This document shows positions 13,171 through 31,324 of a DNA stretch of 37,047 nucleotides, one piece after another. Numbering within the stretch: the first letter of the stretch is position 1; every line of letters starts with the position of its first letter. The notes under the pieces are model-generated. The model worked only from the letters and a program-made list of their open reading frames with translations, searched no databases and was not told where the DNA came from. Both the position numbers and the translations under genes were made by a program. The stretch is from Candidatus Stahliibacteriota bacterium (GTDB lineage: Bacteria; Hydrothermota; Tepidihabitantia; SM23-42), in contig JAUWCU010000008.1 in assembly GCA_030609135.1 (NCBI GenBank), positions 1-37,047 of the forward strand, given 5' to 3'.

Positions 13171-13277
13171 GGGGTCAAATCCACATTATACACGATAACG
13201 AGGGCAGGCAATAACGACAGATGATAGTCCGTTATATCGTAAATAACGAGACCAGGGATACTGGATACTAGTGGAAA
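13171..13277 (+). repeat. Repeat family A copy 2
   Basis: Near-identical to 8466..8575. Confidence 0.95.
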
Positions 13278-13299
13278 ATATGGCATTACCTTTTCTAAG

Positions 13300-13520
13300 A
13301 AATGGAGAAAGGGAGAAAGGGAGAAACGGAGAATGGGAGAAAGGGAGACACGGGGAAAGGGAGATACGGAGAAAGGGAGATACGGGGAAAGGGAGACACG
13401 GAGGAAAGGGAGAAACGGAGAATGGGAGATACGGAGAAAGGGAGATACGGGGAATGGGAGACACGGAGAATGGGAGACACGGAGATACGGGGAAAGGGAG
13501 ACACGGGGAAAGGGAGATAA
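13300..13520 (+). repeat. Degenerate purine-rich tandem repeat
   Basis: Repeats of GGGAGAtACGGaGAAA / GGGAGAcACGGgGAAA; open in all three + frames. Confidence 0.95.
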
Positions 13521-13635
13521 AAGCGTAAAGCGTAGGGCGTTGAGCGTAGGGCGTTTTTAATTATAAATTGCAGCAAATTCTAATTTACAAAACCATTCGA
13601 GATTTTAGATTTTGTAGAATGTCAAGTTGTAAATA

Positions 13636-20312: not shown

Positions 20313-20413
20313 GTGGGTTAAACCCCTATTATACACGATAACGAGGACAGGCAATAACGACAGACGATAGTCCGTTATATCGTAAATAACGAGACCAGGG
20401 ATACTAGATACTG
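20313..20413 (+). repeat. Repeat family A copy 4
   Basis: Same core preceded by GTGGGTTAAACCCCTATTATACACGATAACG. Confidence 0.93.
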
Positions 20414-20511
20414 GTGCAAAAGCTTCACCTATGAAAAAATTGCAGCCGATTTCGTAAAATAGATGCCTTAATTTCCATAAAATTTAGTTACAATTGTTCA
20501 AAGGAGGTATT

Positions 20512-20856
20512 ATGCATGGATTTTGCCATATTGAAATTCCAACAACCGATCCAAGCAAATCCAGTAAGTTTTACAGCAGTATTTTTGGTTGGAAGGTAAA
20601 CGAGAGCAACCCGGATTATTTTGAGTTCTCAACACCTGATGATGATGATGGTGGTTTTACGACCGCGGCGAAACCGGTTCAAGATGGCGTAGTTTTGTAC
20701 ATTAAGGTCGCGGATATTGAAACAAAACTCAAGGAAATTGAAGCGGCTGGAGGAAAAATAGTTAAGGGTAAGACAGGTATCTCTCCAGAATATGGGTTTT
20801 ATGGTTTGTTTACTGATCCCTGCGAAAATATAATGGGGTTGTGGGCGAAAGAATAA
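20512..20856 (+). CDS. VOC/glyoxalase-family protein
   Basis: HIEIPTTDPSKSSKFYSSIFGWKVNES...YGFYGLFTDPCENIMGLW. Confidence 0.9.
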   Translation: MHGFCHIEIPTTDPSKSSKFYSSIFGWKVNESNPDYFEFSTPDDDDGGFTTAAKPVQDGVVLYIKVADIETKLKEIEAAGGKIVKGKTGISPEYGFYGLFTDPCENIMGLWAKE

Positions 20857-20961
20857 CGAGGAGACAAGGAGAAGAAGAGCAGAGGAGAAAAGATAAATAC
20901 CTGAAATTCCCCGTAAAAGAGGATTCTCGCTACGCGGAACAAAATACCTAATTATAATGAT

Positions 20962-22323
20962 ATGAAATTTACCATGGGTAAGATGAAAGACAGGGAAACC
21001 AAAGATCTACAAGAGATTATTGATGGACTAGCCAGAGTAGCCAACAATGATTTCTCTACCAAGATCAAATTATCAGGTAGCAATGCTGATTTAGCTGCTA
21101 TTGCAAAAAGCTTCAATGAGATGATAAGTGAGATCAGGAATGCTGCAGATGACACAAGAGACTCGCTTAATGAACTGGAACGAGTGACAAAGAAACTGAA
21201 GAGGATATTCGAAGCCAGTAATGACATCATTCTCCAGGTTAATAAGTATGGTACGCTCGTCGATATCAATAAGAGTGTCGAGGATATCCTTGGGTTCAAA
21301 GCCGATGACCTCATAGGAAAACATTTTGCTAAGTCTGGTGCAATTCCAGCAAAGGAAATCCCCAAATTAACAAAGAGTTTTAGGGATGCAATTGCCACGG
21401 GTAAAGTGACCGATGTTACCGAACTTGAACTGAAGGCCAAGGACGGCAACATCGTATATAGCGAAGCAAGCACAAAGCTTATTAAGAATGATGATGAAAT
21501 AGAAGGTGCAGTCGTGGTGCTGCGAGATATCACCAGGCGCAGTCGAGCAGAAGAAGCCGTGCGGGAACAGGAGGCGAGGTTGCGTTCGATTATCACCTCG
21601 ATGGAAGATTTTATCTTTATCCTCGATATGGATTTACGTTTCGTGGAATACTATCAATCATCCGAACACCCGGATCCAGATATTTATGCAAAGACTGAGG
21701 AGTATATAGGCAAATCGCTCAGAGATGTCTTCCCGCGTCGGGTGGCTCAGGATTTTGAAAAAGTTATCCGTGCCTGTATAAAGACGAATAATAGTCAGCA
21801 GCTTGATTATCCATGGGAACTACCTGGTACAACACTCTGGTTTAGTGCCAGGATATCACCTCTTTTAGATATTAACGGAAACACTACCGGCGTGACCGTA
21901 GTAGCGCGTGACATTACACTTCGAATGAAAATGGGAAAAGCTCTGGAAGAGAGCGAGAAGAAATACAGAAAGATATTTGAAAACTCTCCGCAAGGTTTTA
22001 TACTTCTGGATACTGAAGGGCATATCATAGATGTGAATAAGAAAATATGTGATTGGCTCGGATATGAACCTGATGAAATGATTGGAAAAAATCATATTCT
22101 GTATCCGTTTCTTACAAAATCAGGTAAGGTTATGGCAATGAAGAAATTTTTTCAGAGACTGCTGGGAAAAGTTCTACCGGCATATGAGCTTGAGTTTGTT
22201 ACAAAAAATGGAGAAAAATTTCTTGGTGAAGTCCTGGCAATGCAGATATGGGATGAACAGGGTAAAATAGTACAAATTCTGGTAATGATATCTGATATCA
22301 CCAATCGTAAAAGCGGGAACTAA
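20962..22323 (+). CDS. HAMP-like plus three-PAS cytoplasmic sensor protein without output domain
   Basis: Three PAS units with PAC-like VVVLRDITRR, VTVVARDITLR, LVMISDITNRK; stops after the last PAC; no TM, kinase or GGDEF. Confidence 0.85.
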   Translation: MKFTMGKMKDRETKDLQEIIDGLARVANNDFSTKIKLSGSNADLAAIAKSFNEMISEIRNAADDTRDSLNELERVTKKLKRIFEASNDIILQVNKYGTLVDINKSVEDILGFKADDLIGKHFAKSGAIPAKEIPKLTKSFRDAIATGKVTDVTELELKAKDGNIVYSEASTKLIKNDDEIEGAVVVLRDITRRSRAEEAVREQEARLRSIITSMEDFIFILDMDLRFVEYYQSSEHPDPDIYAKTEEYIGKSLRDVFPRRVAQDFEKVIRACIKTNNSQQLDYPWELPGTTLWFSARISPLLDINGNTTGVTVVARDITLRMKMGKALEESEKKYRKIFENSPQGFILLDTEGHIIDVNKKICDWLGYEPDEMIGKNHILYPFLTKSGKVMAMKKFFQRLLGKVLPAYELEFVTKNGEKFLGEVLAMQIWDEQGKIVQILVMISDITNRKSGN

Positions 22324-22484
22324 GAACCAGGAAGGATGATGTGAAAGAAGTACAGGAAATCCTCCAGCAATTGACAAAATGACTGCTTCGTAGGTGATTA
22401 TACAGTTAATATGAAACCAAGAATAACATAACCACAACTTACATTTATTTCACATATTTTGTTGAAATTTATAATTGATATAGA

Positions 22485-24206
22485 TTAATCAGGTGTTTCA
22501 GACCACAAATAGAAAGAACCAGTGATAATGATAACGGAGTTATTGCCTGCCTTGGTTTTTAAATACTCGATTCCATTTTTCACTGATGATACAATTGTAA
22601 GGTTTTTTTGATATTTTTTCGCTCTTTTGTATAAATCGATTGGCTCCATTGCCCTTGGGTTATTTGCCTTAACAAGTAGAACTTCTTTTGCTTTTGGAAA
22701 AATGTATTTCAGGCAATATCTAATATCCTTATCTTTGTTAGTGCCAAATATTAAATAGAGATCTTTGGTATTTATAAGATTTAGATTTTTTTCCAGGGCT
22801 TCAAATGAATCCTGATTATGGGCACAGTCAAAGATTATCAAGGGTCTTTTTGTCCGTTCTCGAAGAGTCCCGCTTTGCGTGGATTCTCGGAAATACGGAA
22901 CGAGACTCTTCGGAGATATAATTTCAAATCTGCCGCGCAGGTCTATTTGTCTAATACCCTTTTGTATGGCTGGGATAGGAATTTTGAAGCCCATTTTTCC
23001 AAGTTCATTTATTACCGCAAGAGCTATGAGTAAGTTTTCAACCTGATGTTTTCCTGGCAAAGGTAAAAAGGTATCGTATTTACCGGTTTCTCCTTTAATT
23101 TTTAAATAACTGCCTTTGATTGTTTGTCTTACGATTTTAATATCATGTTGACTTTCGCCGAAAGTGATTTTATTGCGTTGTTTTTTGGCTACTCTTTTTA
23201 TTATTTGTTCTACACTCGATCGCTGGTGAATGGTAATCAATTGACTATACATAGTTTTATCCCTCTTTCTAGGTTGTCGATTTTCTGGAGTAGGGTCTGT
23301 CTGCGTGCGACGCACAGGCAGGCGTTTACGCCCGTATTTTGGGAGTGCAATGTCTTCTGACATTGCATGCAACGAGGGGACTCCCTGTATGTTTATAAAC
23401 TGACGGGGCAGGCGTTGCACTCCATATTTAACGAGCCCTGTTAAATAACAACACCAGGAATGCTTAAACTTTCTTCTACATATTGTATTTAACAGGGCGA
23501 GCCTAAAGGCTCTACTCCCAGGAAAATGGGAGTTTTTCAAAATGTCCACTTGTGGGGGAGGGAAGGGTGGGGGTTTAATAATCCCTGCTTTTTCTCGTGT
23601 GATCTGGGATAATTTATTACCTAATAGATTTGTATGGTCATAGCCGATTTTTGTTATTACTGATATTATCGGGTGTGTAACATTTGTTGAGTCGAGTCTG
23701 CCGCCCAGTCCAACTTCAAGAATTGTGAAATCGGTTTTTTCCTTTAAAAAATGCAAAAATGCAATTGTAGTAAGTACTTCAAAGTAAGTACGTGCCCCGT
23801 GAAATTCATGTTGTTTAATAGGGCTTGCCCCAGATGATTTTCTATATTTCACAGGGCGTGCGCCAACTGGTGTTTTCATATTTATGTAAGGTTTAATTTC
23901 TTTGATGTATTTATTTAATTGATGATTTGAAATTTCAATATTATTGATTTTTATTCTTTCATTTATTCTTTTAAGGTGGGGTGAGGTAAATAGTCCTACC
24001 CTGTACCCACTGGTTTCTAAACATGAACTAATCATTGCGGCAGTGGAACCTTTTCCCTTTGTTCCCGCGATATGTATGACATTATTCAGTCTTTTTTGCG
24101 GTGAGTCAAATTGTGTTAAAAATTCTATGAAGTCTTCAAGTTTGTAATCGTAACCAGGTATTTTTTCGTAATCAACCAGGGAGTTAAAAAATTCTTCAGG
24201 GTTCAC
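22485..24206 (-). CDS. folC: Bifunctional folylpolyglutamate/dihydrofolate synthase containing three in-frame palindromic insertions
   Basis: P-loop HIAGTKGKGSTAAM, LEVGLGGRLDSTNV, REKAGIIKP, LPGKHQVENLLIALAV, IIFDCAHNQDS; non-homologous insertions at about aa 112-139, 213-320 and 431-452. Confidence 0.93.
   Translation of the reverse strand: MNPEEFFNSLVDYEKIPGYDYKLEDFIEFLTQFDSPQKRLNNVIHIAGTKGKGSTAAMISSCLETSGYRVGLFTSPHLKRINERIKINNIEISNHQLNKYIKEIKPYINMKTPVGARPVKYRKSSGASPIKQHEFHGARTYFEVLTTIAFLHFLKEKTDFTILEVGLGGRLDSTNVTHPIISVITKIGYDHTNLLGNKLSQITREKAGIIKPPPFPPPQVDILKNSHFPGSRAFRLALLNTICRRKFKHSWCCYLTGLVKYGVQRLPRQFINIQGVPSLHAMSEDIALPKYGRKRLPVRRTQTDPTPENRQPRKRDKTMYSQLITIHQRSSVEQIIKRVAKKQRNKITFGESQHDIKIVRQTIKGSYLKIKGETGKYDTFLPLPGKHQVENLLIALAVINELGKMGFKIPIPAIQKGIRQIDLRGRFEIISPKSLVPYFRESTQSGTLRERTKRPLIIFDCAHNQDSFEALEKNLNLINTKDLYLIFGTNKDKDIRYCLKYIFPKAKEVLLVKANNPRAMEPIDLYKRAKKYQKNLTIVSSVKNGIEYLKTKAGNNSVIIITGSFYLWSETPD
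22857..22916. repeat. Palindromic insertion 3 inside folC (~60 bp, in frame)
   Basis: TCTCGAAGAGTCCCG ... CGAGACTCTTCGGAGA inverted arms; splits GRFEIIS from RPLIIFDCAHN. Confidence 0.72.
23247..23570. repeat. Nested palindromic mosaic insertion 2 inside folC (~324 bp, in frame)
   Basis: Contains GGAGTGCAA/TTGCACTCC (23342-23350/23415-23423) and GCCCTGTTAAATA/TATTTAACAGGGC (23435-23447/23486-23498); splits REKAGIIKP from SQLITIHQRSSVEQ. Confidence 0.78.
23790..23873. repeat. Palindromic insertion 1 inside folC (~84 bp, in frame)
   Basis: CGTGCCCCGTGAAAT ... ATTTCACAGGGCGTG inverted arms; splits KEIKPYINMK from TYFEVLTTIAF. Confidence 0.75.
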
Positions 24207-25032
24207 ATTGTCCTAACGGCTTTAATTTCATTGCAATGTCAATAGCCGGGGCTGAATGGGTGAGTGCACCGATGGAGATAAAGTCCACGCCACAGTCTTT
24301 ATAAGCAGCGATATTGTATAGGTCGATTCCGCCACTTGCCTCGATTTCTGTATCCCCTTCTGAGGCGCGTACAATTTCAACGGCTTTGCTTAATTGATCA
24401 GGGGTCATATTATCGAGCATGATCCGGTTAACCTTAACTGATAGGGCTTCGTTCAATTCTTCAAAGGTCTTGACCTCAACTTCCACAAAAGCTCTTTTTC
24501 TTTTCTTGCGTGCCGCGCGTACCGCATCAGTTATACTACCGGCAATCTCAATGTGATTGTCTTTGATCAACACCATATCGTATAGACCAAATCGGTGGTT
24601 ATGACCGCCACCGGTACGGACGGCATATTTCTCCATTACTCTCAAACCAGGGGAGGTTTTTCTCGTATCGAGAATTTTCAATCGTCCCTCAGTAACATCC
24701 ACGAAGTTCCTGGTGAACGTGGCAATGCCGCTTAGGTGTTGTAAGAAATTGAGTGCAGTCCGTTCACCTTTCAAACATAAGGCGGCTGAACCAATGAGCG
24801 TGGCAATGGTCATACCGGGTGAAAAACTAGCACCGTCAGGCATTTTGCATTGGAAATCAATACGTTCATCAAGTACCGCAAAAACCATCCGGGCAATCGT
24901 GACGCCGCATAAGATGCCGTCTTGTTTTGCGAATATTATACCGAGTGCTTGTTGTTGTTCATCAACTATCGGATCAGTTGTGATGTCACCCCTGCCGATA
25001 TCCTCTTTGAGCGCATTTTTGATGATCCTCAA
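24196..25032 (-). CDS. nadC: Nicotinate-nucleotide pyrophosphorylase (quinolinate phosphoribosyltransferase)
   Basis: EDIGRGDITTD, LNFLQHLSGIAT, LDTRKTSPGLRVMEKYAVRTGGGHNHRFGLYDMVLIKDNH, IEASGGI. Confidence 0.97.
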   Translation of the reverse strand: MRIIKNALKEDIGRGDITTDPIVDEQQQALGIIFAKQDGILCGVTIARMVFAVLDERIDFQCKMPDGASFSPGMTIATLIGSAALCLKGERTALNFLQHLSGIATFTRNFVDVTEGRLKILDTRKTSPGLRVMEKYAVRTGGGHNHRFGLYDMVLIKDNHIEIAGSITDAVRAARKKRKRAFVEVEVKTFEELNEALSVKVNRIMLDNMTPDQLSKAVEIVRASEGDTEIEASGGIDLYNIAAYKDCGVDFISIGALTHSAPAIDIAMKLKPLGQCEP

Positions 25033-25048
25033 GAATTGCTTATTGTCT

Positions 25049-27046
25049 TTATCGCTTTGAACCGACTTCCCTTTGATATCTCCTCCCTTCGTTGTTTTCC
25101 AATCGTTGCTTTATTAATTTTATCCGATCCCTTATTTCTGCGGCACGTTCAAATTCCATCAAGGCGACCGCTTCTTTCATTTCTTTGTACAGCTTTGCCA
25201 GTTCTTCAACCTTTATTTGTTCTTTGTTGCTTTTGTTTATGCGGTCAGCGACTGAGGTTGCCTTAATTATCTCTTCCTCGGTTTTGACAATGGACCGTGG
25301 TGTGATATTGTGTTTTCTATTATAGGTAAATTGCTTATTGCGCCTTCTTGCCATTTCGGCAATCGCTCTTTTCATTGAGTCTGTATTTTCATCAGCATAC
25401 ATGATGACTTCGCTGCGCACATTGCGTGCGGCACGACCGGCCGTTTGAATCAGGGAGCGTTCACTTCTTAAAAAGCCTTCACGGTCGGCGTCGAGGATTG
25501 CCACCAAGGTGACTTCGGGCAGGTCAAGACCTTCCCTCAGAAGGTTGATACCAACAAGCACGTCAAATTCGCCCAACCTCAATGCTCTTAGGATTTCTAT
25601 TCTCTGGATAGCATTTATTTCTGAGTGCATATACCTTACCCGTATGCCGATTTCATTGAGATACTGCGCAAGGTCTTCAGCCATTCTTTTTGTCAAGGTT
25701 GTAACCAATACCCGCTCTTTATGCTGTACCCTTTGCCGTATTTCCGCGATCAGGTCATCGACCTGATTTTTCGCTGGTTTTACTGTAACCTTGGGGTCAA
25801 CAATGCCGGTGGGGCGGACGATCTGCTCGACCATGCGGTGTCCTGATTTTTCAATTTCCCATTGTCCTGGTGTTGCGGAGATGCATATTGCCTGCTTAAT
25901 CAATTGTTCAATTTCATCGAACTTCAAAGGTCTGTTTTCCAGTGCCGAAGGTAACCTGAAACCGTGCTCAACGAGCATTGTTTTACGCGCACGGTCACCT
26001 TCGTACATGGCGTGCAGCTGAGGTATTGTTACATGTGATTCGTCGATGACCATGATGTAGTCATCACCAAAGTAGTCGATCAGGCAATATGGTCGCTGGC
26101 CGGGTTTACGCCCGGACAGATGCATAGAATAGTTTTCAATACCCGAACAATAACCTAACTCAAGAAGCATCTCGATATCAAATTTTGTGCGCTGCGCCAA
26201 GCGTTGGGCTTCGAGGAGCTTGCCTCTTGCCTCAAAATACTTTAGCCGGTCAGCCAATTCGTCCTTTATTGCCTCAACCGCTTGCTCAATCTTGGATTGG
26301 GTGGTAATGAAATGTTTTGCCGGGAAGATTGTGATATAATCGAGGTTCTTTACGGTATGTCCGGAGATCGGGTCAAACAATTGGATTCTTTCAACTGTAT
26401 CACCGAACAATTCGACACGGATGCCGTATTTTTCATCGGCTGGGTGGATATCGACTGTGTCACCGCGTACGCGGAATGTGCCGCGTGCAAATTCAAGGTC
26501 ATTCCTCGCATATTGAATGGCAACGAGTGACTTTAATAGGGTGTCTCGATCCCGGGTATCGCCTTTGTTCAGGTAAACAACAAGCTCCTGGACTTCTTCA
26601 GGTGACCCTATGTTAAAAATGCAGGATACTGAGGCGACGATTATTACATCACGGCGCGTGAGCAGCGCCGCGGTTGCTCGCAACCTGAGCCTTTCTATTT
26701 CTTCATTTATTGACGCATCTTTTTCAATATATAGATCGGTTGCTGGAAGATATGCTTCCGGCTGGTAATAATCATAGTATGAGATAAAGTACTCAACGGC
26801 ATTATCTGGAAAGAACTGTTTGAATTCACCGAATAACTGCGCGGCAAGTGTTTTATTGTGCGAAATGATGAGCATTGGCTTCTGGACGCGTTCGACAACA
26901 TTAGCAATTGTAAATGTCTTACCTGAGCCAGTGACGCCCAACAAGGTTTGAAACCGTTTACTCTGTTCAATACCTTTAACTAAGTTCTGTATGGCTTCAG
27001 GTTGGTCTCCTTTGGGGGTAAAAGGAGCGTGGAGTCTAAAGGTCAC
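25049..27046 (-). CDS. uvrB: Excinuclease ABC subunit B
   Basis: LLGVTGSGKTFTIANV, ISYYDYYQPEAYLP, INLLREGLDLPEV, C-terminal UVR motif. Confidence 0.98.
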   Translation of the reverse strand: MTFRLHAPFTPKGDQPEAIQNLVKGIEQSKRFQTLLGVTGSGKTFTIANVVERVQKPMLIISHNKTLAAQLFGEFKQFFPDNAVEYFISYYDYYQPEAYLPATDLYIEKDASINEEIERLRLRATAALLTRRDVIIVASVSCIFNIGSPEEVQELVVYLNKGDTRDRDTLLKSLVAIQYARNDLEFARGTFRVRGDTVDIHPADEKYGIRVELFGDTVERIQLFDPISGHTVKNLDYITIFPAKHFITTQSKIEQAVEAIKDELADRLKYFEARGKLLEAQRLAQRTKFDIEMLLELGYCSGIENYSMHLSGRKPGQRPYCLIDYFGDDYIMVIDESHVTIPQLHAMYEGDRARKTMLVEHGFRLPSALENRPLKFDEIEQLIKQAICISATPGQWEIEKSGHRMVEQIVRPTGIVDPKVTVKPAKNQVDDLIAEIRQRVQHKERVLVTTLTKRMAEDLAQYLNEIGIRVRYMHSEINAIQRIEILRALRLGEFDVLVGINLLREGLDLPEVTLVAILDADREGFLRSERSLIQTAGRAARNVRSEVIMYADENTDSMKRAIAEMARRRNKQFTYNRKHNITPRSIVKTEEEIIKATSVADRINKSNKEQIKVEELAKLYKEMKEAVALMEFERAAEIRDRIKLIKQRLENNEGRRYQREVGSKR

Positions 27047-28715
27047 GTTTCAGTATTCGATATGATTTAGAGTCAATAGAGAACCTCAGTTTCTGTGAGA
27101 AGGCAGTGAGTTGCTCGCCGTTCACCAGGTCAGTATAAGTACCATCCCATGCCGGCAAGGAAACAAATGACTGTTTATCTCCTGAATTGAGGACGACGAT
27201 AAGACCACCTCGGTCATATGCATAGATTCCTGTAATGTCATTGACATACAGAGTGAAAAATGTGTTGCTCGATAGAAGAGGATTTGATTTACGGATTCTG
27301 ATGAGTTTTTTTATTTCTGCAAGAAACATGCGATTCTGGTTCACAATATCCCAGGGAAAACTACCCATGTTAAGCGGTGCATAATCAGACATCGCTATTT
27401 CTTCGCCGTATAGAATGACTGGTGATCCTACACAGGTGAAAATAAATGCATAGAGATTCCTGACAGATTTCTTATCGGGGACAACTCGCATGTCATGACT
27501 TGAGAGGTTAATTAAGTTTACACTATTGCTCTGGGCAGGGCTAAAAAGGAGTATCTGCTGGAGTTTTCTATTAAATTCACTGGTCAGTATGTTATTTTTC
27601 ACAAAGTAGTTGACAAGCAAATCGGTCAGTGCTTTGTTCGAACTGCCATCAAAGGTTTCACCGGTAAGAAGGCGTATGTCACTGCCTAAGAGCAGAATAT
27701 TTGGATATCTCGATTTCAAATGGGTACGCAAGGTCCGTATAAACTTTGCATTAAGATGCTCGTCTTCACCAATATAAAAACCGTCAAAGCCAAAGCGCTT
27801 CCAGTATCCCAAATAACCGATTAGATAATTCATGACCTGGGGGTTGTTTAGATTGAACTTAGGAAAACGATAATCAGCGCGCCAACACTCATAGTTGGGC
27901 GGCGATTTTTTTATGGGTAGTGTATTGATCAGATACCAGTCAACGTATTTCGAACCTGCACCGTTCGTTTCAACGTCTGTGAAAGTTGGAAAATCAACCC
28001 CGGTGTGGCTGAAGGTAACCGAGAGAATTATCTTCATATTTTTTTCGTGCACTTGGTCGATAAGCTTTCTCAGAGCCATAGTATCCCCGAAACATGAATC
28101 GATCTTTGCGAAATCGCTTGCATTGAACTTGTGATTTGACGATGCTGAAAAAATCGGCTGCAGCAATATGATATCCGGTCCCAGTGAATCAATATATGCT
28201 AACTTATCAATAATACCTTTGAGGTCGCCACCATAAGGCTCCCAGTTTTTTGGTGCTTTACCCCAAGCCCTTTTTTCCTTGGGGTCATTGACACTGTCGG
28301 CATTGTAAAAACCATCCGTAAAAATCGAATAGTAGATTTTTCCAACGGCCCAGGATGGAGGTGTAAACAACGGCACCTTGGGAGTGAATTCATCAGTTTC
28401 CGGCAATAACAGAGAATCCTCGCCGTGTTTGACGACGAAATGGTAGGTTACTGTAGTATCAAATGCATTTAGGGTTGCTGCGAGATAGTCGTAGTTTGCA
28501 TCGCTATAAACTGATTTCATCGGGTGGCGTATGTCGTTCATAAGGACCAGAACTTCCGCGACCGCACCCCGTTTTGCCCTCAGTTTCACTTCACCCGCCG
28601 AAGGATTAACATAGAAGATACTGTTTGGGTTATGCGTTATATCACTTAGGCTGAGTGCATTGCTCAGTTGAGGTAGCAATAGCAATAATAAGGAACCCAG
28701 AAATAGTCCTCTCAT
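27036..28715 (-). CDS. Secreted GH13 (alpha-amylase-like) protein lacking canonical catalytic residues
   Basis: WEPYGGDLKGIIDKLAYIDSLG, MKIILSVTFSHTG, RFGFDGFYIGEDEH, LLLGSDI, NLSSHDMRV, GSPVILYGEEIAMSDY; signal peptide. Confidence 0.85.
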   Translation of the reverse strand: MRGLFLGSLLLLLLPQLSNALSLSDITHNPNSIFYVNPSAGEVKLRAKRGAVAEVLVLMNDIRHPMKSVYSDANYDYLAATLNAFDTTVTYHFVVKHGEDSLLLPETDEFTPKVPLFTPPSWAVGKIYYSIFTDGFYNADSVNDPKEKRAWGKAPKNWEPYGGDLKGIIDKLAYIDSLGPDIILLQPIFSASSNHKFNASDFAKIDSCFGDTMALRKLIDQVHEKNMKIILSVTFSHTGVDFPTFTDVETNGAGSKYVDWYLINTLPIKKSPPNYECWRADYRFPKFNLNNPQVMNYLIGYLGYWKRFGFDGFYIGEDEHLNAKFIRTLRTHLKSRYPNILLLGSDIRLLTGETFDGSSNKALTDLLVNYFVKNNILTSEFNRKLQQILLFSPAQSNSVNLINLSSHDMRVVPDKKSVRNLYAFIFTCVGSPVILYGEEIAMSDYAPLNMGSFPWDIVNQNRMFLAEIKKLIRIRKSNPLLSSNTFFTLYVNDITGIYAYDRGGLIVVLNSGDKQSFVSLPAWDGTYTDLVNGEQLTAFSQKLRFSIDSKSYRILKRDL

Positions 28716-28720
28716 ATAAA

Positions 28721-28748
28721 ATGATACTTAAATTAGATATGTTGTCAA
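28721..28748 (-). promoter_or_regulatory. Promoter TTGACA-16-TATCAT for GH13-like gene, predicted leaderless
   Basis: TTGACA 28748-28743, TATCAT 28726-28721, ATG 28715 only 5 nt past the -10; no SD. Confidence 0.65.
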
Positions 28749-28787
28749 GTTATTAATGCACCTTTACATAAGACTTAAGTATTTTAC

Positions 28788-28815
28788 TTGACAATTTCCA
28801 ATAACTTTGTATACT
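28788..28815 (+). promoter_or_regulatory. hslU promoter TTGACA-16-TATACT
   Basis: TTGACA 28788-28793, TATACT 28810-28815. Confidence 0.75.
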
Positions 28816-28851
28816 TTCATGATGGAGGACAAAGCGTTAAAAGGTGACGTG

Positions 28852-30204
28852 ATGTCTAATAGTTTTGCCACGCCCGGTGAGATCGTTGCCCAACTCGATA
28901 AATATGTCATTGGGCAGTCCGAAGCAAAAAAGGCCGTTGCCATAGCTTTGCGTAACCGGTGGCGTAGACAGCGCGTTACTGATAAAATCAAGGATGACAT
29001 ATATCCAAACAACATAATTTTAATCGGTCCTACTGGTGTTGGAAAGACCGAAATTGCACGTCGCCTAGCCAGCATAGCACGATCCCCGTTCATTAAAGTT
29101 GAGGCATCTCGGTTTACTGAAATCGGTTACGTAGGTAAGGATGTCGAATCAATGATCCGCGACCTCGTTGAGATTTCGGTCAATATGGTGCGCCACGAAA
29201 AGATGAAATTGGTGCAGGAAAAAGCACGCCAGTTCGCGGAGGAACGCATACTCGACATTCTCCTTCCGGTTCCTCCAACCGTCAAGAAAAGCGAATTGGT
29301 TACCAATGAAATAACCAGAACACCTGGCTCCACGCGTGAGAAAATGAGGGATTTATTGAATGAGGGGAAGTTTGATGATCGGGTAATCGAGTTGGAGATA
29401 TTCCACCAGCAGATGCCTTTTGTTGAAATCTTTAGCCATGCAGGCATCGGTGACCTCAGCGGAGTTTTGGAAGATGCTTTTGGTAGGAACTTACCCAAGA
29501 AGAAAAAAAAGAGGAAGATGCCGGTCAAGGAAGCACTCAAGTATATCCAGAATGAAGAAGCTGATAAGCTCATTGATATGGACGAAGTGATTAATGAGGC
29601 ACGGCAGCGTACTGAGAACTCAGGGATTGTTTTCATCGACGAGATCGACAAGATAGCCGGGGGTACTGCTACACACGGGCCTGATGTTTCCAGAGAAGGT
29701 GTGCAGCGGGACCTTTTGCCGGTTATTGAAGGTTCCAATGTTATGACTAAACACGGTATGATAAAGACAAACCACATTCTATTCATCGCAGCCGGTGCTT
29801 TCCATAATAAGAAACCATCAGATCTAATCCCCGAGATGCAAGGACGATTTCCAATCCGGGTGGAGCTTTCCGCTCTAACAACCGAGGATTTTCAGAGAAT
29901 ACTCGTCGAACCGGAGAATTGTTTGATTAAACAATACAGTTTGTTATTGGCGACTGAGGGCATTAGCCTTGAATTTACAGATAGTGCTATTAAAAAGATC
30001 GCCGTGATAGCATCAGAGGTCAATACATCGACTGAGAACATCGGCGCCCGCCGGTTGCATACGGTAATGACGAAAATCCTTGAAGAGATACTTTTCGCAG
30101 CGCCGCAGGTAAGTGAGAAGCAAATAAAGATAACCGACGAGTATGTGAACACAAAACTCAAGGATATTGTGAGTGATGTTGATATGTCGCGGTACATATT
30201 ATAA
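28852..30204 (+). CDS. hslU: ATP-dependent protease ATPase subunit HslU (start 28852)
   Basis: TPGEIVAQLDKYVIGQSEAKKAVAIALRNRWRR, GPTGVGKTEIARRLA, VFIDEIDKIA, C-term DMSRYIL. Confidence 0.97.
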   Translation: MSNSFATPGEIVAQLDKYVIGQSEAKKAVAIALRNRWRRQRVTDKIKDDIYPNNIILIGPTGVGKTEIARRLASIARSPFIKVEASRFTEIGYVGKDVESMIRDLVEISVNMVRHEKMKLVQEKARQFAEERILDILLPVPPTVKKSELVTNEITRTPGSTREKMRDLLNEGKFDDRVIELEIFHQQMPFVEIFSHAGIGDLSGVLEDAFGRNLPKKKKKRKMPVKEALKYIQNEEADKLIDMDEVINEARQRTENSGIVFIDEIDKIAGGTATHGPDVSREGVQRDLLPVIEGSNVMTKHGMIKTNHILFIAAGAFHNKKPSDLIPEMQGRFPIRVELSALTTEDFQRILVEPENCLIKQYSLLLATEGISLEFTDSAIKKIAVIASEVNTSTENIGARRLHTVMTKILEEILFAAPQVSEKQIKITDEYVNTKLKDIVSDVDMSRYIL

Positions 30205-30237
30205 GAGGGCTAAAAGAGGGCAGCAGCGTTTTTTAAG

Positions 30238-30633
30238 ATGAAATTAAAGAAAGCAATTTTTGTTTTAACTGACTCTAATGATCAGCATGTTGCTGAGTCA
30301 GTAATTCAGCTGTGCAAGAAATTCAAGAGCAAGCTTTTTGTGTTGTTTATTATCGAGACAGGTAGGATATCTCGGCTTGCGCGCTTGACTCAGAAGAAAA
30401 GCGACATGTTGCGCAAAAAGATTGAAGATGAAGGATGGCAGTTACTCTACCTAATCGAAGATGAGGCGGACAAAACAGGTGTTTCGACTTCACTTCATCT
30501 CGAGAACGGCATTGCGACGACCATTGTTAAGAAGTATGTTGACGCATACAATATCGATACTTTATTAGTAAAGCGAAAGAATGAAACCAAAAAGTTGTTT
30601 GTTTCATCGATGGTTCCAGTGGTAGGACTGTGA
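30238..30633 (+). CDS. Universal-stress-protein-like protein
   Basis: KKAIFVLTDSNDQHVAESVIQLCKKFKSKLFVLFIIE...STSLHLENGIATTIVKKYVDAYNIDTLLVKRK. Confidence 0.6.
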   Translation: MKLKKAIFVLTDSNDQHVAESVIQLCKKFKSKLFVLFIIETGRISRLARLTQKKSDMLRKKIEDEGWQLLYLIEDEADKTGVSTSLHLENGIATTIVKKYVDAYNIDTLLVKRKNETKKLFVSSMVPVVGL

Positions 30634-30862
30634 TTATAGTAATCGTAGAGCGGTTTGCGGTTTCGAGAGGCGATACGGTTGCGTATATGGGTTTTGTTAA
30701 ACGACAGACGACGTTCAATGACGAATCGCTTTTCGTTCCGTCCCCGAGAATCCTCGTTCCCGGCGGGACAACCGATAAACGTCAAACGAAACCTAATATA
30801 TTTAAACATTTAGGTATTTAGATATTTAGGCATTTAGATGTTTGTACTTACAAGGGGGTGTA

Positions 30863-31324
30863 ATGATATTGAAGATATCAGAGGTCCTTAAGCCTGAAGC
30901 GATTATCATGAAGATGAAATCCAAGGAGAAGATCGCGGTGCTAAAGGAACTGGTTGATCATATGGTTGATAATGAATTAGTCGAAGATGGTGAGGAATTT
31001 CAGAAAGCTCTGGCAAAGCGCGAGAACCTTGAATCTACGGGTATTGGTGATGGTATTGCTATACCGCATGCGCGTACTGATGCGGTCAAGGGTCTCATCC
31101 TTGCCTTTGCGCGGTCTGAACAAGGTGTCGATTTTTCGGCAATTGACGGCAAACCGTCCCATCTTATTTTTCTCATTGCTTCACCAGTGGATAAGAAAAG
31201 TGAGTATATCATGGCTTTGGCAAAAATCTCCAGGTTATTGCGCAAGCAGGAGGTGCGTCGCCTCTTAAAAGATGCCGATAACCCGAATGAAATACTAAAC
31301 ATTATTAAGAAAAACGAAGAGTGA
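30863..31324 (+). CDS. PTS EIIA-type (fructose/PtsN-like) protein
   Basis: KRENLESTGIGDGIAIPHARTDAVKGLILAFARS with active-site His; start 30863 preceded by AAGGGGGTG. Confidence 0.93.
   Translation: MILKISEVLKPEAIIMKMKSKEKIAVLKELVDHMVDNELVEDGEEFQKALAKRENLESTGIGDGIAIPHARTDAVKGLILAFARSEQGVDFSAIDGKPSHLIFLIASPVDKKSEYIMALAKISRLLRKQEVRRLLKDADNPNEILNIIKKNEE

Follow-up and report, generated by a model that had tools for sequence, protein, structure and literature searches.

In-frame insertion in folC of a WOR-3 bacterium as a probable composite of two nested mobile hairpin repeats

The window analysed here, the whole stretch of 37,047 nucleotides, belongs to a 2.56-Mb genome of the WOR-3/Candidatus Stahlbacteria lineage (G000; the other G numbers denote genomes of relatives) and carries a folC gene that hosts three inserts, I1 to I3 (Table 1). 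Its product is 573 aa long, compared with mostly about 425–470 aa for the open FolC frames of relatives. I3 lies in frame between FEIIS and KRPLIIFD, as placed by an alignment of 30 folC copies, and is free of stop codons in all six reading frames. The solved structure of Thermotoga maritima FolC (PDB 1o5z) lacks the loop; the alignment puts RFEILEKNGKMYILDGAHN at the corresponding place, which, from knowledge of the fold, we take to be a turn between two strands.

Table 1. Coordinates of folC, its inserts and the repeat elements in the window
Feature	Position	Strand	Description
folC (dihydrofolate/folylpolyglutamate synthase)	22485..24206	-	573 aa; host of three inserts; TIGR01499 E=3.8e-95; PDB 1o5z relatives
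I1, folC insert	23792..23857 (approximate bounds)	-	66-bp palindrome of a family other than that of I3
I2, folC insert	23262..23545 (approximate bounds)	-	hairpin mosaic including GCCTAAAGGCTC and GGCGTTTACGCC
I3, full folC insert	22853..22915	-	63 nt = 21 codons; added residues PKSLVPYFRESTQSGTLRERT; D with core in its loop
I3 target			ATAT^CAAAAAG; bounds from filled/empty alignment against G012, G016, G003 and G001
D left arm in I3	22901..22915	-	CTCCGAAGAGTCTCG; pattern family with 35 matches family-wide, 0 in control
D right arm in I3	22853..22867	-	CTCTTCGAGAACGGA; aligned with the D-only folC of G009 and intergenic D copies
Core in I3 (33 nt)	22868..22900	-	TTCCG-TATTTC-CG(A)GAA / TCC(A)CG-CAAAG-CGGGA; motif and model R1 match
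Intergenic core (33 nt)	30736..30768	+	context CGAATCGCTTTTCG[core]CAACCGATAAACG
Intergenic core copy	20908..20939	-	second hairpin degenerate

An earlier note on this DNA had read I3 as an in-frame insertion, expected an empty site in close relatives and named a conserved FolC loop as the observation that would speak against it. Comparison with empty sites confirmed the insertion and set its bounds: the loop is absent from 27 of the 30 aligned genes, including the closest I3-less relatives with 83–84% DNA identity. Only the window gene and that of G002, a genome of the same genus, have the full 21 residues, and G009 carries at the same site a related insert of 10 residues, a shorter form that consists of the outer element D alone. 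At the DNA level, target bases are neither duplicated nor lost at the I3 junctions. In the folC gene tree, the I3-less G012 and G016 are sister to G000 and G002, and the I3-less G001 and G003 come next, so the insertion is recent. The folC genes of G012 and G016, which are listed in another genus, are nearer to that of the window than those of the same-genus G001 and G003; gene transfer or a taxonomy issue are possible reasons.

That I3 is an ordinary FolC loop, conserved or adaptive, is highly improbable. Such a loop would agree with its being open in two species and with two of the three differences between G000 and G002 along the 68-nt stretch being synonymous (judged by eye), but its absence from the nearest relatives and from most aligned genes refutes a conserved loop, identical element DNA lies between genes, and the frame varies from gene to gene. 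We give even less credence to an assembly or annotation artefact or a folC pseudogene. These are MAG data, and folC of G002 (L010; C21, JAUVZL010000012.1) is broken by a one-base shift inside I2 into frames of 270 and 302 aa, which could be true decay or a sequencing error; however, G002 is an independent MAG that shares I3, which makes an assembly error unlikely, and folC of G000 has an uninterrupted frame and a strong match to the FolC family.

The two other inserts are of different make. I1, bordered by GGSGCA(C/A)G, is present once in the window gene and as three tandem in-frame copies in G016 (L012), and is missing from G002. Because the I2 hairpins GCCTAAAGGCTC and GGCGTTTACGCC also flank the RAYT genes L100 of G000 and L167 of G001, REP-type traffic into folC is real.

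I3 shares a motif with two intergenic loci, and all three copies reported in the earlier note were recovered (22881–22901 and 20921–20940 on the minus strand, 30735–30753 on the plus strand), with none expected from shuffled sequence; at 20908–20939 the motif is present, while the second half of the element is degenerate. The motif proves to be the middle part of a core of about 32–36 nt, with longer-loop variants, whose aligned copies read TTCCG-N-CG(A)GAA, T, CC(T/A)CG-N-CGGGA. The core thus consists of a pair of short hairpins with one bulged base apiece, the second being an inverted copy of the first. A feature not seen in the earlier note is that the motif forms a double hairpin which itself lies within another hairpin element. 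No Rfam family matched positions 20400–31000 at the gathering score.

The two hairpins are supported by compensatory change. Inner stem bases vary yet remain paired in 75% of cases in hairpin 1 (P=0.007) and 83% in hairpin 2 (P<5e-5), P values that are optimistic since some of the 24 core copies used are close relatives. In 89 distinct model-aligned core rows, 98.5% of cells pair, both sides change in 7 of 13 pairs, and 158 cells are changed on both sides, a score reached in none of 500 shuffles; this alignment leans towards structure, being fitted to the model and including both strands of some copies. The pairs of an alternative single long hairpin, into which one copy folds as DNA, do not covary (46%, P=0.79), and this fold was rejected. 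Within the overall explanation developed below, and with the same degree of confidence, the core would be an inverted REP pair in miniature, its two bulged mini-hairpins being inverted relative to each other.

The genome-wide motif search proposed in the earlier note returned 8 exact copies in the window genome and none of the reversed pattern. The bare word CGAGAATCC occurs 34 times versus 7 times for the reversed word, and by inspection about 13 of the 34 are members of the family. With a covariance model we obtained at least 36 matches at E<=0.5 in the same genome, some of them both strands of one place, and counted no fewer than 19 separate places at E<1e-3; the copy number is low, although all these counts are lower bounds. 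Core matches at E<=0.5 are found in 20 of 23 family genomes, and a search of 147 phylum genomes at E<=1e-4 placed the core in 15 of the 23 family members versus 1 of 124 genomes outside.

As the earlier note had held, the same class of element occurs both inside and between genes, and insertion outside folC is equally seamless. Filled (L065/L066) and empty (L311/L318) versions of one intergenic site have identical flanks and differ by 32 nt, with zero duplication. The sorting-domain gene L215 has 36 extra nucleotides (12 codons) of core, again with zero duplication, and at least 12 paralogues without core read straight through (L263, L266 and L270 among them; e.g. IKFQVPSSKNQVTM). The core is likewise in frame in L212, L226, L230, L231 and L191, and probably in L206; the sorting domains with core belong to secreted proteins. 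A conserved reading frame or peptide (RES[ST]QSGT, read in folC and in one group of the sorting-domain genes) was considered and rejected, as L212 and L191 use other frames. Since frames differ between genes, the core copies keep no particular peptide. The target is loosely defined, with ^CAA in 3 of 5 contexts. Landing sites of the core are repeats of the form TCATTGCGAG...GCGTGG CAATCTC with variable inner hairpins (L311, L318 and others), the 3′ part of which has 19 matches in the window genome.

The second element, D, is a hairpin of 30 nt (CTCCGnAGAGYCTCG...CGG) that holds the core in its loop in folC. Its exact pattern matches 35 times in the family and never in the reversed control, and AT precedes D in 28 of 30 copies examined, giving a fixed target AT^C. 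D also enters other hairpins. In G003, D alone sits inside one of the GTAG-type REPs that flank the RAYT gene L176, and the RAYT gene of the window genome is flanked by that same REP type without D; L103 provides the empty form and L176 and L063 the filled forms. At C8 this REP context holds D together with core, and D lies at the centre of cores in G009, G014 and G005 (filled/empty set L122/L232, L131/L247 and L233). L248 is an internal deletion derivative, shortened between CTCG repeats. Altogether there are about four independent D contexts, namely REP, core centre, folC and L239. Many REP-borne copies may stem from a single event, and many D copies may have spread within REP subfamilies rather than by independent insertion.

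Concerning D in folC, the copies of G009 and G000 are identical at 25 of 30 positions versus 63% for the gene (P=0.015), and the G000 copy is closer to an intergenic D of G003 than to that of G009. One ancestral insertion common to both genomes was judged less likely, two gains fitting the gene tree better; these sequence comparisons hint, weakly, that D may have been gained twice.

Two explanations without independently moving elements bear on these filled and empty sites. In the first, D and core would ride along in larger units (REPs, CATTGCGAG..CAATCTC repeats, copies of sorting-domain genes), and recombination or gene conversion alone would have spread them, which we regard as unlikely. 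A single REP context does hold many D copies, and the sorting-domain genes L215, L226, L230 and L231 have the same insert in common, but D occurs in about four unrelated contexts and the core in five, the majority of them with an empty form, and folC is single copy among strong matches. Hairpins provoke replication slippage. The palindromes could accordingly have been made locally, by slippage or template switching with no dispersed element moving, as the deletion in L248 and the tandem I1 copies of G016 might suggest; one consensus with exact ends at unrelated sites, for which exact empty counterparts exist, makes such an origin quite improbable.

We therefore favour, with a probability of roughly 65%, the reading that I3 is a composite of two non-coding mobile hairpin repeats that inserted seamlessly and were moved in trans by an enzyme of the Y1/RAYT type. 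On this composite reading, the 30-nt D would have entered folC at AT^C, and the 33-nt core would have entered the loop of D or come along with it, both without duplication or deletion of target bases. The 21 added codons would fall where a turn joins two beta strands and presumably be translated, and FolC would tolerate them because length and frame fit. D and core would be non-autonomous and travel as folded single strands, mobilised by an HUH (Y1) transposase of the RAYT or IS200-IS605 kind. This mode of movement is suggested by seamless insertion, the fixed short target of D, stems that are kept paired by covariation and whose bulges are conserved, and the presence of ten genes for Y1 transposases in the window genome.

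Candidate partners were sought among these genes. The core was not found as a flanking repeat of RAYT genes in the own-genome RAYT loci and a large sample from relatives, and no transposase recurs next to core copies, whose recurrent neighbours are sorting-domain proteins and conserved gene neighbourhoods. None of the Y1 genes scanned belongs to an autonomous TnpA element that shares ends with D or core, and the flanks of D and core carry no GTAG tag of their own, while the REPs hosting D do. Separately, five Y1 transposases of ~340 aa (L095–L099) have common inverted ends TGGGGTCAAATCT, and similar strings recur between window genes, e.g. at 150, 5619, 6390, 8465 and 13170. The window also contains a long intergenic tract of purine-rich repeats with an 8-bp period (13251–13556).

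Several known systems resemble D and core in part. Rickettsia palindromic elements (RPEs) are palindromic repeats that lie between genes and in frame in unrelated genes, adding short extra peptides (PMC10969869). D and core likewise occur between genes and in frame in unrelated genes (folC, sorting-domain genes), but belong to another lineage, show no single preferred frame in contrast to the conserved RPE peptide, and form in I3 two nested seamless elements of 63 nt, compared with an RPE length of about 100–150 bp, the RPEs reported first having about 150 bp. Intragenic REPs, often dimers, code for 20–30 aa, and the CGTC REP has an unpaired CGTC tag, a stem of 8–9 bp, a loop of 4–5 nt and a CCA tail (PMC3733652); CGTCCCG or a terminal CCA is seen in some core copies but is absent from most, and the bulged core stems have about 6 bp. 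A stem bulge is needed by TnpAREP of one group (PMC8266576), and excision of REPIN doublets is possible (PMC3116915). The core resembles GTAG/CGTC REPs, BIMEs and REPINs as an inverted pair of short imperfect hairpins with bulged stems; unlike the GTAG REP/RAYT system, D and core are without GTAG tag or core-flanked RAYT, have few copies, and take each other as well as GTAG-type REPs as insertion sites.

Insertion sequences that target REPs enter at a fixed point in the REP hairpin, at least one (ISPa11) without the usual direct repeats (PMC1525189). D shares the fixed point, but these insertion sequences have transposase genes aboard, whereas D and core are non-coding and of 22–63 nt. Filled/empty pairs with zero target duplication set both apart from classical MITEs and recall non-autonomous elements of the IS200/IS605 type, D by its AT^C target without duplication, the core with a looser one. 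The double-hairpin elements of mitochondrial genomes also come as tandem pairs of hairpins dispersed over the genome, but are organellar. Among the papers searched, none dealt with WOR-3 repeats.

D and core thus work like intragenic REPs and RPEs, and what they add is seamless hairpin-in-hairpin nesting; they bear no GTAG tag, and no core-flanked RAYT was found in the loci scanned. More tentatively, and in our view rather doubtfully, they might form a separate class of minimal hairpins (about 22–40 nt) that enter hairpins seamlessly and site-specifically, build nested stacks, are moved by a non-RAYT enzyme and occasionally miss into genes, adding in-frame peptides.

The best-known examples of protein-coding palindromes come from Rickettsia and from a small number of REP-rich genomes, and their mode of movement has remained unclear. 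In folC of living relatives, the empty site, D alone and D with core all exist with exact junctions, and this series allows a direct test of how the elements insert (seamlessly, and at AT^C in the case of D). The locus presents an essential biosynthetic gene that has been enlarged by three different repeat insertions.
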